Source: Synechococcus sp. CO36386bin_37 (GTDB taxonomy: Bacteria; Cyanobacteriota; Cyanobacteriia; PCC-6307; Cyanobiaceae). From it: DNA of 14,511 bases. A model generated the notes under the pieces. It searched no databases. It was given only the letters and a program-made list of their open reading frames with translations, and had not been told where the DNA came from. The stretch is from NCBI GenBank assembly GCA_011525445.1, contig WTGE01000093.1:1-14511 (forward strand), given 5' to 3'. Within the stretch, counting starts at the first letter, position 1. Every line of letters starts with the position of its first letter. This document shows, in pieces, positions 428 to 4,484 of the stretch. Both the position numbers and the translations under genes were made by a program.

Positions 428-1633
428 TCAACAAGGCAAAATATCTTTGTCAAAAATGGAGGTGGGTAGTGCCAACGTACAACATGCATTAGGGATATCC
501 ACAATGCCGCTGATTCTGCCCTCAACAGGTGCGCAACTCAGAAGTAAGTATGCTTGCTCACCCGTGTAGCCAAATTTTTTCAAATACTCAATTGCGTTCA
601 AACATGCGCGTCTGTATGCAATGTGCACATCCATGTAGAACTGCTTACCTTCAAACTCATCTACAGAGATTCCCTCGAAAACAAGGTAATCGCTATAGTG
701 AGGTTCCACTGGACTTGTCTTAAACATGGGATTAACCATCCCATATTTGGCCATTCCTCCCTTAATGATATCGACGTGAAGGTCCAGATAACCGGACATT
801 TCGATCGCACCACAGAATGATATTTCTCCATCTCCTTGCGAGAAGTGAATATCCCCCATCGAAAGCTTGGCACCTTCAACATAAACAGGAAAGTAAATCC
901 TTGTGCCTTTTGTGAGATTTTTGATATCACAGTTGCCACCGTGCTCACGTGGTGGGACTGTGCGTGCGGCTTCGTTTGCGATCCGATCAAAATCACTGGC
1001 TCCTACATTGCCCAAAATTGCGCTGTTGGGGTTAGGCAATGCAGCGAGGACAGGCTCGCTGCCTGAGAGGCCAGCGCCATAAGTTCGGCGGTCAGGAGCT
1101 GTATTGACGAGCTCTGTTTCCCTTCGGTTCCATTCATTCAGGAGCTCCATGGATGGAGCGCAGCCAATCAGCCCAGGGTGTGTGATTCCAGCAAATTTCA
1201 CTCCGGGGATATGTCGAGACGAGGTGTAAACACCCTCCAAATCCCAGATTGCCTTGGCGGCTTTAGGGAAATGGTCTGTTAAGAACCCTCCACCATTCTC
1301 TTTCGCAAAAATTCCTGTAAAGCCCCATTCATCACCTTGTAATGCGCCAACTTCAAGAATGTCGACGACAAGGATGTCTCCAGGTTGGGCACCGTTGACC
1401 CAGATCGGTCCACTCAAAACGTGAACGACCTCAAGGTTGACATCGGCAATGTCTTGCGGATCATCATTGTCCTTGATCTGACCGTCTGTCCAGTCTTTGC
1501 ACTCGATACGGAACACATCTCCCGGATTGACGGATGCAACAGCAGGAATGTCTGGATGCCATCTGTTGTGACCAGGCATCTCCTGCTGATCCATTGGCTT
1601 TGTGAGATCAACCTTGAATAAGGTTTCTGGCAT
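428..1633 (-). CDS. fmdA: Formamidase, FmdA/AmdA (acetamidase/formamidase) family
   Basis: A 401-residue cytosolic enzyme of the FmdA/AmdA amidohydrolase family, close to the usual length of about 400. It is expected to hydrolyse formamide to formate and ammonium. Characteristic stretches include GHNRWHPDIP (21-30), HPGLIGCAPS (152-161), PREHGGNCDIKNL (228-240) and GDIHFSQGDGEISFCGAIE (260-278). The ATG at 1633 is supported by a strong GAGGAGGTGA Shine-Dalgarno on the minus strand (1655-1646), with a long spacing of 12 nt. A perfect NtcA-type site lies 52-65 nt upstream of the start codon. The gene lies between amiF (upstream) and fmdB (downstream), so the locus encodes two formamidases from unrelated families. 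Acetamide or another short amide is a possible alternative substrate; sequence alone does not decide. Confidence 0.92.
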   Translation of the reverse strand: MPETLFKVDLTKPMDQQEMPGHNRWHPDIPAVASVNPGDVFRIECKDWTDGQIKDNDDPQDIADVNLEVVHVLSGPIWVNGAQPGDILVVDILEVGALQGDEWGFTGIFAKENGGGFLTDHFPKAAKAIWDLEGVYTSSRHIPGVKFAGITHPGLIGCAPSMELLNEWNRRETELVNTAPDRRTYGAGLSGSEPVLAALPNPNSAILGNVGASDFDRIANEAARTVPPREHGGNCDIKNLTKGTRIYFPVYVEGAKLSMGDIHFSQGDGEISFCGAIEMSGYLDLHVDIIKGGMAKYGMVNPMFKTSPVEPHYSDYLVFEGISVDEFEGKQFYMDVHIAYRRACLNAIEYLKKFGYTGEQAYLLLSCAPVEGRISGIVDIPNACCTLALPTSIFDKDILPC

Positions 1634-1802: not shown

Positions 1803-2852
1803 TTACAAGGCGATGGTTTCGACAGGCTTTGCTGTGGTCGTCCCATTTTTAGGCATAGGTCCAAGCTTTACGCCATCTGGGTAATACTTCCAGCCGTCCC
1901 TAACTTTGATACTGCTATCCCAGGGCAGTTTGTACTCTCCTTTTGCCAAGTCCTCAACCCATGTGAGATAGTTTTCTTTTTCCCCGCCAGGCTTGCCGAC
2001 GTAAGCACGGCATCCCAAATTGAAGATATTGTTCTCCAAGGCCCAATTCTCTCTGGCCTTATCGACAAGTCTGGGGAAGAGTTCAGCGGTGACAATTTCC
2101 CATGGATTCCGATGTCCTTGTTGAATGACGTTGCCGTCGTAGTTGCATACAGTTCCTTCGCCAAAATAATAAAAGACACCATCGTAGCCAGCCAAATTGA
2201 CTGAAATGGTATACATCAGATTCTGCCAGGCGTTGGTCCTGTTCGTCCAAATCCACTGGTCATTGACCTGGGTGGAGTATCCCGAAATGCGGATGTAGAC
2301 GTTGGCGCCTTTGTATGCCGCCTCCCTTGCCAGTTCAGGGAACATCCCGTCATGGCAAATACAGACTGCAAGTTTTGATCCTTTAGGTCCATCACATACA
2401 GGCATGCCATAGTTACCTGGAGACCATGGTTCAATCGGAACCCATGGTTGCAATTTGCGGTAGTGAAGTGCTATCTCACCGTCGGAATTAATAATGATTG
2501 CTGTGTTGAATGGTGGTTTGCTCGGATCATCATTAACCTCCATGAGTGAGAACACACCCCAGACATCATTTTCTTTACAGGCTTGCTTGAAACGACCAAT
2601 TTCCGGAGAATCGATGGTCAATAACATTTCATCGTAAGTCCAGATCGCAGTGTTCAGACCCTGGGTTGAATACTCAGGCATCACGATCAGATCGGCATCT
2701 GGATAGCCCGCTTTCGTCGATGCAACCGCTTTGCAAATCTGATCGACCTGGGTTTGGATGTCTTCCGGGCCTTTGATCACAGGGACCGGGTACTGAATCA
2801 TTGCGACGAGCAGTGATTCATCCCATGAGCTGACGCTTCCAGTACTGGCCAT
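1803..2852 (-). CDS. amiF: Formamidase, nitrilase superfamily (AmiF)
   Basis: A 349-residue nitrilase-fold amidase that hydrolyses formamide to formate and ammonia. The catalytic triad falls at the numbers described for Helicobacter pylori AmiF: Glu60 (in [11 protein letters not shown]), Lys133 (in HYRKLQPW) and Cys166 (in AVCICHDGM). The following segment [12 protein letters not shown] and the motif [10 protein letters not shown] also match AmiF as I recall it. This near-collinear agreement supports the ATG at 2852 as the true start, although no clear Shine-Dalgarno precedes it. The protein runs slightly longer than the roughly 334 residues of the Helicobacter enzyme, through a C-terminal tail. 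A nearby Met at residue 18 would remove the first strand and is unlikely. The broader-substrate paralogue AmiE is the main alternative, but motif details favour AmiF. Confidence 0.93.
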
Positions 2853-2968: not shown

Positions 2969-3445
2969 TTAGTTGTCGCGGAACTTTCCTTTTCGACAGG
3001 CATTAAGTGCCACCCGTTGTGCCCAATTCGGTGCTTCTTCGTTTCCCTTGTTCACGTGTTTTCCGTTGAAGTGCATCAGAAGTTGCCATTGGGTCGCTCC
3101 CCCTTCTTCACCAGGCTTCTCGTCAACTTCGAGCCAACGTCCATAGATGTTGTCGTAATCTGGCCATCCTGGTAAGTCAGGCATACTGCAAACAACATTG
3201 ACTTCGACAAATCGAGTGTTCTTGTTCTTGTCGATCACTTGGACCCCGCCGTCAAACAGACCATTGGGTTGTCCTGCCTTGAACTCGCTGACTAGGACGA
3301 CTCTCTGATCACCGACGATGCTGATCGTGTCACCTGGTTTTGCCAAGCTGATCGGAACCTCTTTCTGGGCGCCGCAGCTTGTCGCGCTAAGGCAAGCGAA
3401 GATGATGGTTGCCAGTTTTGATTTCGCTTTTTGGATGTGATTCAT
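2969..3445 (-). CDS. Hypothetical secreted protein or lipoprotein
   Basis: A 158-residue protein I do not recognise. It begins with a basic n-region (MNHIQKAKSK), then a hydrophobic stretch LATIIFACLS and ATSC at residues 21-24. This looks like a signal peptide with a permissive lipobox, C24 being the probable lipidated residue. The mature part is hydrophilic and carries two more cysteines, C86 and C150, which could form a disulfide. Aromatic-rich segments (DLPGWPDYDNIYGRWLEV) suggest a compact extracytoplasmic domain. It lies 116 nt upstream of amiF on the same strand; a link to formamide use is possible but not shown. The ATG at 3445 has no visible Shine-Dalgarno, so the start is tentative. 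A perfect GTAN8TAC site lies about 120 nt upstream of the start. Confidence 0.65.
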   Translation of the reverse strand: MNHIQKAKSKLATIIFACLSATSCGAQKEVPISLAKPGDTISIVGDQRVVLVSEFKAGQPNGLFDGGVQVIDKNKNTRFVEVNVVCSMPDLPGWPDYDNIYGRWLEVDEKPGEEGGATQWQLLMHFNGKHVNKGNEEAPNWAQRVALNACRKGKFRDN

Positions 3446-3563
3446 GGATGAACGTGGGTTGAGAATGGTTTGAATCGTGATGCTTTATGTAGAGATATGA
3501 CCTTTTGGGGCTTTGGTATCTGAGCGAGCTCCGTTTTGTGAGTAGTGCGGGCATTGTGAAGTG

Positions 3564-3577
3564 GTAACAGTTGTTAC
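3564..3577. promoter_or_regulatory. Perfect NtcA-type palindrome (GTAN8TAC) in a divergent promoter region
   Basis: GTAACA-GT-TGTTAC contains a full GTAN8TAC consensus with six-base symmetric arms. It lies between the minus-strand lipoprotein gene and the plus-strand DUF4278-type gene. I find no clean TAN3T box at the usual 20-24 nt spacing on either side. A repressor position near the start of plus-strand transcription is therefore as plausible as an activator position. NtcA represses gifA and gifB in model cyanobacteria, which fits the plus-strand gene if it is gif-like. Confidence 0.55.
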
Positions 3578-3583
3578 TCGACC

Positions 3584-3655
3584 AATCGTTCACCCTGCAA
3601 AGCAGGGCGCACTCATCCAGGGCCAGGGAACGGGGGCCCAATTGGTAAGGAGCGC
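3584..3655 (+). promoter_or_regulatory. Structured leader resembling a degenerate glutamine (glnA-type) aptamer
   Basis: The leader starts AATCGTTCACCC, which agrees with the conserved 5' strand of glnA-type glutamine aptamers as I remember it. Helix P1-like: CGTTC (3587-3591) with GAGCG (3650-3654), one G-U pair. P2-like: CCCTGC (3593-3598) with GCAGGG (3602-3607). P3-like: GGGCC (3620-3624) with GGCCC (3635-3639). The 3' end TAAGGAGCGC resembles the conserved GAAGGAACGC. The core CGGAAGUAGG expected after P2 is absent; 3608-3619 reads CGCACTCATCCA. The P1 3' strand overlaps the Shine-Dalgarno TAAGGAG (3646-3652), so helix formation would hide the ribosome site. It may be a variant or decayed aptamer, or a coincidence. 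Confidence 0.4.
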
Positions 3656-3660
3656 AATTC

Positions 3661-4095
3661 ATGTCCCACTATGTTTTTCGAGGAAACTCCTACGAGAAAT
3701 TAATGCGATCTTCAAAGGTCTCTGTAATCTCAAAAGAGTTAGTTTATCGCAAGAAGCCTGCCTTAGATCCGTCAGAAAATATTATTCGCTCTCAGAAAAC
3801 TGCACAGCTTCTGCAGCTCGAGACGAGGCCGAAGCCTGGGCTCCGTCTCGTTTACCGCGGTTGTGTGGTCTCTCCCCAGCCGTCTGTTATTCAACGACGT
3901 CGATCGATTCAACCTGGTGGGTTTATTCGCTCACGGATGACAGCCGAGTTGATCGGAGTGAATCCATCCTCATCCTCCCCTTGCTTGACTGTAAGAGAGG
4001 GAGGGATATTGCGTTCTCGTCGACTTGCTGCCCTGATTGGGGTTGAGTCCTCTGCGATGACAAGGAAAAGAGTGTACAGAGGGGTGGAGTATTGA
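3661..4095 (+). CDS. Basic repeat protein with DUF4278-like YRG motifs, possibly GifB-like
   Basis: A 144-residue, strongly basic protein. Three YRG-type motifs, VFRGNSY (5-11), LVYRGCVV (63-70) and RVYRGVEY (137-144), plus the variant LVYRKK (27-32), match the cyanobacterial DUF4278 signature. Between them lies a second repeat in three copies: IIRSQKTAQLLQLE (41-54), FIRSRMTAELIGVN (88-101) and ILRSRRLAALIGVE (116-129). These resemble the Arg-rich 'ML-R-A--EIGVE' core I recall from glutamine synthetase inactivating factors (IF7/IF17), and the length is near that of IF17 (about 149). The ATG at 3661 has a TAAGGAG Shine-Dalgarno at 8-nt spacing. The upstream NtcA palindrome and glutamine-aptamer-like leader support a nitrogen role. 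DUF4278-like is well supported; the GifB link is inference. Confidence 0.8.
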   Translation: MSHYVFRGNSYEKLMRSSKVSVISKELVYRKKPALDPSENIIRSQKTAQLLQLETRPKPGLRLVYRGCVVSPQPSVIQRRRSIQPGGFIRSRMTAELIGVNPSSSSPCLTVREGGILRSRRLAALIGVESSAMTRKRVYRGVEY

Positions 4096-4484
4096 GAGCT
4101 TTAGCTCGCGTGAGAACGATACGTTTCTCAGGAGTTGTCATGGTTGTTTCAATTTCTTTGTTTGCGGCGAAGTGAATCACGCATATTAAACAAATAATTA
4201 ATTAAATTCTTTTAATCGTATGAAAACAATGATTGGTGTTGAGTTTGCTGCATTCATGGCTTGCGTTTTTGATAGTGTTTGACGCATTGCGTCTAATCCT
4301 TTTGGATGGTTTCCTGTCTTTTAGAGGTCTAAGATTAAAATGAGTTTTAGTCTCTTAAAGTCCCGCAAAGGTGGCAATGATTTGTTCTCTGTAGGCTGAA
4401 TGACACTCAATAATGTTATGTGGTAAGTGCTTCTTTTCGCTTTTTAATTCCTTGCGACTGAAATTGTAGGTTCTGAGCTTGCAC
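4096..4484. other. Intergenic gap of 389 bp without a supported gene
   Basis: An AT-rich gap between the plus-strand DUF4278-type gene and the 3' end of the minus-strand permease. It holds small hairpins: TGAGAA/TTCTCA (4111-4116 with 4125-4130), GACGC/GCGTC (4281-4285 with 4289-4293) and a 9-bp stem at 4332-4353. None has a clear U-tract in either direction. Only 11- and 20-codon reading frames are present and I do not accept them as genes. A small RNA here cannot be excluded. Confidence 0.5.
4332..4353. repeat. AT-rich hairpin in the 4096-4484 gap
   Basis: AGATTAAAA (4332-4340) pairs with TTTTAGTCT (4345-4353) through nine pairs including one G-U, with loop TGAG. It is about 130 nt beyond the permease stop. 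Function unknown; possibly the end of the permease operon transcript or part of a small RNA. Confidence 0.35.

Follow-up and report, generated by a model that had tools for sequence, protein, structure and literature searches.

Organization of the locus

The DNA analysed here (hereafter the window) is a stretch of 14,511 nucleotides from a marine Synechococcus-like genome. It contains a gene for a protein of 144 amino acids, preceded by a structured RNA leader and divergent from a block holding formamidases of the FmdA and AmiF types. The features of the region are, in order:

79-354, in a block with the two formamidases: zinc-ribbon protein
428-1633, reverse strand: formamidase FmdA (NF045496, 668 bits; cut-off 500)
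1803-2852, reverse strand: formamidase of the amidase/nitrilase type, AmiF-like (NF009803, 602 bits; cut-off 406)
2969-3445, reverse strand: gene for a 158-amino acid product with no hit in Pfam or NCBIfam, lying between the riboswitch gene and the two formamidases
3552-3557, forward strand: CATTGT, a weak -10-like hexamer placed where the family has TATAAT (three of six letters shared)
3564-3577, forward strand: NtcA-type box GTAACAGTTGTTAC, fitting GTAN8TAC, with the predicted transcription start near its first base
3584-3642, forward strand: predicted Glutamine-II riboswitch aptamer (RF01704)
3587-3591, forward strand: pseudoknot 5' strand CGUUC, invariant, its pairing with 3628-3632 present in all 12 aligned leaders
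3593-3607, forward strand: P1 hairpin, CCCUG (3593-3597) with CAGGG (3603-3607), 96.7% of cells paired in 12 leaders
3608-3611, forward strand: conserved strand CGCA, invariant in 12 of 12 aligned leaders and present in the Rfam consensus
3620-3639, forward strand: P2, GGGCC (3620-3624) with GGCCC (3635-3639), 95.8% of cells paired
3628-3632, forward strand: pseudoknot 3' strand GAACG, from the Rfam alignment and the 12-leader alignment
3647-3652, forward strand: Shine-Dalgarno AAGGAG, seen in the sequence 3' of the aptamer
3661-4095, forward strand: apparently controlled gene, 144 amino acids, with repeated YRG..Y and RS..TA.LL modules and a sub-threshold DUF4278 match

The leader RNA

When the whole window was compared with all of Rfam, the sole match at the gathering threshold was to Glutamine-II (RF01704, formerly Downstream-peptide and also known as the type 2 glutamine riboswitch), at 3584-3642 on the forward strand. 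It scores 43.6 bits against a gathering score of 33 (E 5.8e-8) and spans positions 1-60 of the 60-position model. This E value leads us to reject a chance origin, which the first-pass annotation had entertained. Folding energy by itself is uninformative (z -0.53), since 54 of 200 shuffled sequences fold equally well or better, and it would not have revealed the aptamer. Judged by its sequence, the leader is an ordinary Glutamine-II riboswitch of the class already known from marine cyanobacteria. It would add one further copy to that class, and binding of glutamine by this copy is predicted.

The first-pass annotation had described the sequence elements correctly and placed the aptamer wrongly. 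ATCGTTCACCC is present at 3585-3595 and is followed by hairpins, and AAGGAGCGC is present at 3647-3655. AAGGAGCGC is not the 3' strand of the aptamer, as had been proposed: the Rfam match ends at 3642 and the pairing strand is GAACG at 3628-3632. Nor does the aptamer overlap the ribosome site, the Shine-Dalgarno lying beyond its end at 3647-3652. The search with the glnA and Downstream-peptide models which that annotation had recommended put Downstream-peptide above its cut-off and glnA below, and its stem comparison among orthologous leaders found the pseudoknot, P1 and P2 kept.

Twelve leaders, chosen by hand and not at random, were aligned: that of the window, those of six full-length orthologues (L253-L258), those of three shorter relatives of the gene (L259, L260 and L264) and two from Prochlorococcus (L025 and L053). 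The H-type pseudoknot CGUUC/GAACG, P1 and P2 were found in the window and in its 11 chosen relatives, 97.4% of the 192 cells of these helices being standard pairs; when the partner strand is shifted by 1 to 3 columns, pairing drops to 28-55%. Changes on both sides of a pair occur in 11 cells, a number reached by none of 500 shuffles, kinship being ignored. Three of the six P2 pairs are changed on both sides somewhere in the alignment. Three pairs with a two-sided change were also reached by 200 of 500 shuffles, and the number of pair types was matched by 467 of 500. The pseudoknot strands never vary and are therefore uninformative on covariation. The window has the GCA-containing strand as CGCA at 3608-3611; in Glutamine-II this strand lines the ligand site (Huang 2019, PMC6698751).

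Promoter and NtcA-type box

For statistics on the upstream and downstream regions a larger set of leaders was assembled from at least 341 pattern matches. The 311 with a usable start were clustered into 45 cellular and 42 viral representatives, and after unrelated bacteria, phage-like MAG contigs and shifted duplicates had been dropped by hand 30 or 26 cellular and 38 viral representatives were left. The exact-core pattern favours canonical copies, and relatedness is ignored in every count.

The sequence GTAN8TAC, which we take to be the NtcA consensus, occurs four times in the window against 0.36 expected. In 21 of the 26 cellular representative leaders it precedes CGTTCA by 3-10 nt, most often by 4 nt, against a background of 15 occurrences per 320 kb; the gap in the window is 9 nt. 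Among the viral representatives 8 of 38 have such a box within 60 nt, mostly at other distances. A TATAAT-like hexamer stands 12 to 7 nt before the box in a set of 111 distinct cellular upstream stretches, a spacing from which transcription would begin near the box's first base. The start in the window is accordingly predicted there, upstream of 3584. A sigma-70 consensus scan of 3400-4400 gave no promoter-like site. No terminator-like site was found between the aptamer and the ATG, which fits translational control. In the account of Bolay 2018 (PMC6316151), NtcA represses the gif genes and an NtcA box precedes PMM1846.

The downstream gene and its relatives

A protein search with the 144-amino acid product returned 47 relatives besides the window's own entry. 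All but one are 142-149 amino acids long and 53-64% identical; the remaining one has 88 amino acids. Repeated YRG and RS..TA motifs are conserved across the 15 proteins that were aligned. The score against DUF4278 (PF14105) is 15.5 bits, below the Pfam cut-off of 25.3, so the protein does not qualify as a member; all 15 aligned proteins match DUF4278 weakly (best E 0.0011). An AlphaFold model shows a faint hairpin-plus-helix repeat and is too poor to use, with a pLDDT of 52 and a pTM of 0.16.

A direct search of GTDB contigs for the gene found no relative. A later search of 400 genomes of the family found distant relatives, with a match in 13, six of these spanning nearly the whole protein at 43-50% identity. 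A Glutamine-II RNA directly precedes the match in ten of the 13 (G294, G283, G229, G065, G260, G220, G116, G166, G151 and G002), including all six full-length orthologues. G078, which has a weak gene match (E 1.1e-4), has no Glutamine-II RNA at all. The other two, G190 (L263) and G277 (L262), retain the gene, its GTAN8TAC box and a GTTCA remnant, but the remaining part of the aptamer is degenerate. These are apparent natural losses of the riboswitch, and on that reading the switch would be dispensable in some lineages.

Glutamine-II RNAs are present in 4 to 11 copies in 11 of 12 genomes (76 in total, one of them below the cut-off), and four further genomes have 4 to 10 copies each. Bolay 2018 (PMC6316151) describes type 2 switches as multi-copy in marine picocyanobacteria, located before DUF4278 genes whose expression glutamine activates.

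Glutamine riboswitch cores were also seen in at least 120 IMG/VR contigs (L121-L240), often before very short ORFs of the YRG type. All 20 viral contigs that were scanned pass at least one of the two Rfam models, 16 of them RF01704 and six RF01739. Tandem cores stand a few bases apart in L127, L156 and L177, and about 230 bases apart in L199. In isolated cyanophages such as P-SSP7 (NC_006882.2, L379:3004-3057; 48.1 bits) the RNA separates the major head gene from a small gene that follows psbA. The cyanophage RNA is unannotated in 18 of 18 matched records, several of which are duplicate records of one phage. Glutamine riboswitches are known in phages (PMC9004378, PMC9964418); a literature search found no report of the Glutamine-II class there.

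Alternative readings of the leader

The most durable of the alternatives concerns how the switch would act on translation. The decisive fold could be one in which CGUUC pairs with the Shine-Dalgarno segment GAGCG (3650-3654) when glutamine is lacking and with GAACG when it is bound, the two pairings being mutually exclusive. This would fit a published proposal in which an unspecified fold masks the ribosome site in competition with the pseudoknot (Huang 2019, PMC6698751). A complement to GUUC, G-U pairs allowed, occurs within the 22 nt preceding the start in 19 of the 26 cellular representatives versus 66 of 219 control genes (p 2.8e-5), and exact GAAC in 9 of 26 versus 17 of 219 (p 4e-4). Against the 43 controls which have a Shine-Dalgarno, however, the first test weakens (22 of 43, p 0.06) and the gap in the second is smaller (5 of 43, p 0.024). 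Leaders pair hardly better with their own sites than when swapped (-4.18 versus -4.01 kcal/mol), viral leaders show no excess (7 of 38 versus 78 of 571), and the pairing is absent in the six full-length orthologues.

In the window itself the CGUUC (3587-3591)/GAGCG pairing, with one G-U pair, is worth -5.7 kcal/mol, a value reached by 6.4% of the 219 control genes and by 7.0% of the 43 with a Shine-Dalgarno; in a smaller control set the figures are 14% and 17% (with a Shine-Dalgarno). The folding models cannot hold a pseudoknot, which was imitated by barring its strands; so treated, ensemble folding gave no significant freeing of the site (p 0.08; p 0.36), and modelled closure of the aptamer in the window left the unpaired fraction of the ribosome site at 0.45 to 0.45, or 0.45 to 0.46. 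The predicted fold of the free leader contains another mask, GC-CUC (3609-3614) with GAG-GC (3650-3655), and the site stays closed in the model when the aptamer strands are barred. We consider the CGUUC mask unlikely to be the decisive fold. As a family-wide rule it was rejected, being weak against Shine-Dalgarno controls, absent in viral leaders and unsupported by ensemble folding. The first-pass annotation had drawn its P1 over the Shine-Dalgarno. Such a pairing may form as an alternative fold and is not part of the aptamer; neither is it conserved, the six full-length orthologues having no GGAG before the ATG.

A second possibility is that the RNA is a relic, a decaying copy gone out of use. 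Its 43.6 bits are low among the copies listed (31 to 74.5 bits), and two relatives have visibly degenerate leaders. Yet the window has lost none of the positions invariant in the 12-leader alignment, and relatives retain the box, the aptamer and the gene as a unit, so that we hold this to be very improbable; the decay which had been suspected here seems to have occurred in G190 and G277 instead.

Least credible, to the point of being nearly negligible, is a variant glnA (Glutamine-I) aptamer whose core has changed and whose ligand may differ: both classes share ligand-site sequence (Huang 2019, PMC6698751) and RF01739 gives a weak match at the same place (19.6 bits, E 0.089), but this is far under the 35 bits set as its gathering score, a threshold that RF01704 does exceed for its own model, and we rejected Glutamine-I membership on that score. 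The Glutamine-I three-way junction with its loop-E core was not found, the core sequence, in the consensus quoted by the first-pass annotation, being absent from the window. Its absence is no alteration because the matching class has a pseudoknot instead (Huang 2019, PMC6698751), and the supposedly altered core is the standard CGCA strand of Glutamine-II. The proposal of a glutamine riboswitch leader before a gene of a marine Synechococcus-like genome stands, with its class changed from the glnA type to Glutamine-II.

The formamidase neighbourhood

The block with both formamidases lies beside the orthologue in all three genomes that were fetched at length. In these relatives FmdA is 96-99% and AmiF 97% identical to the window's enzymes, whereas the riboswitch gene is 44-47% identical; the controlled protein thus evolves much faster. 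The unnamed 158-amino acid gene is kept in the same three, at about 57% identity.

FmdA was found in 62 and AmiF in 21 of the 400 family genomes. In 12 of the 13 gene-bearing genomes FmdA is divergent from the gene and 1.3-2.2 kb away, the exception being G078 with its weak match; AmiF adjoins the gene in ten, and G116 and G166 have FmdA alone. Within the sampled genus a profile search places the gene in 13 of 34 genomes. All 13 also have a formamidase of one kind or the other, as does G346, in which a mere 750 bases of contig precede AmiF, so that the gene could not have been seen; G001, one of the 34, may not be among the 400 searched for formamidases. The association of AmiF with the gene has a Fisher p of 3.6e-12 over the 400 genomes and of 3e-6 over the 34, relatedness being ignored. 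Three findings count against a simple account of the linkage, the in-frame stops given below among them. Fifty genomes have FmdA without any match to the gene. A Glutamine-II RNA lay within the available DNA at 3 of 15 AmiF loci scanned, the six loci already known being excluded.

Two further observations concern the enzyme genes. In-frame stops interrupt FmdA of G220 (three; G220:C1:2426517-2427719) and AmiF of G294 (one; G294:C11:39653-40684), and reflect either decay or sequencing error. A second GTAN8TAC box at 1685-1698, reading GTATTCGCTGATAC on the strand of the gene, precedes the FmdA start by 52 bases in the window; none of three relatives examined keeps it at that position, and one of them carries such a box at a different place.

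The RNA is of a known kind, and the formamidase linkage is the less expected part and the one worth following. Within one genus the presence of the gene tracks that of formamidase genes almost exactly, in divergent adjacency, and an orphan protein thereby gains a testable partner. Our literature search, which covered a minority of subscription papers, found no paper joining a formamidase and a glutamine riboswitch in Synechococcus. Bolay 2018 (PMC6316151) regards the control of glutamine synthetase in marine picocyanobacteria as unclear and proposes as candidates the DUF4278 proteins encoded after type 2 switches.

A proposed model for the locus

We consider it very probable that the locus has a Glutamine-II riboswitch in the 5' leader of the 144-amino acid gene. 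On our best reading the switch would be glutamine-activated and NtcA-repressed, and the gene would encode a small regulator tied to formamide nitrogen. Under nitrogen shortage NtcA, to judge from the position of the box over the transcription start, would block the promoter; with nitrogen plentiful the leader would be transcribed. Rising glutamine would then stabilise the CGUUC/GAACG pseudoknot and translation of the small protein would go up. The direction is taken by analogy from another member, in which glutamine turns expression on (Bolay 2018, PMC6316151; Huang 2019, PMC6698751); the crystal structure of Glutamine-II is also published (Huang 2019, PMC6698751). The protein, with its repeated DUF4278-like modules, might then tune nitrogen uptake or assimilation. 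Since the gene adjoins formamidase genes, a plausible target is the formamide-to-ammonium route or the enzyme which takes up that ammonium.

A bolder and tentative reading, to which we give clearly less than even weight, makes the 144-amino acid protein a glutamine-induced factor devoted to formamide use, as its brake or its partner. Glutamine, as the end product of ammonium assimilation, would switch on a fast-evolving adaptor, whose target would be either the neighbouring formamidases or the step taking up their ammonium. If true, it would supply a concrete target for an orphan protein behind the type 2 glutamine switches of marine picocyanobacteria.

Comparison with known systems

Small proteins made when nitrogen is plentiful include two regulators of cyanobacterial nitrogen metabolism, IF17, the gifB product, and PirA, which is presumably a member of the DUF4278-type family, and the protein described here would resemble them in this respect. 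Unlike them, it has DUF4278 at a sub-threshold level and its modules are repeated with RS..TA.LL segments. IF17 has DUF4278 as its N-terminal part and is encoded by a gene with a glutamine riboswitch (Bolay 2018, PMC6316151); PirA and the GS inactivating factors are reported in PMC8092223 to be absent from marine picocyanobacteria. With Glutamine-I (RF01739) the leader shares the ligand-site strands CGUUC and GGAACG, but not the three-way junction with loop E. Glutamine-II is the closest known system: the whole RF01704 model is matched, with pseudoknot, P1, P2 and CGCA, in the leader of a small gene in a genome of the marine picocyanobacterial type, and as with PMM1846, an NtcA-type box stands in front (Bolay 2018, PMC6316151). 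The window differs from the Rfam consensus in the linker between CGCA and P2, and from typical Glutamine-II loci in the length of its gene, 144 amino acids versus 17-100 (Weinberg 2010, PMC2864571), and in the position of that gene beside formamidases.
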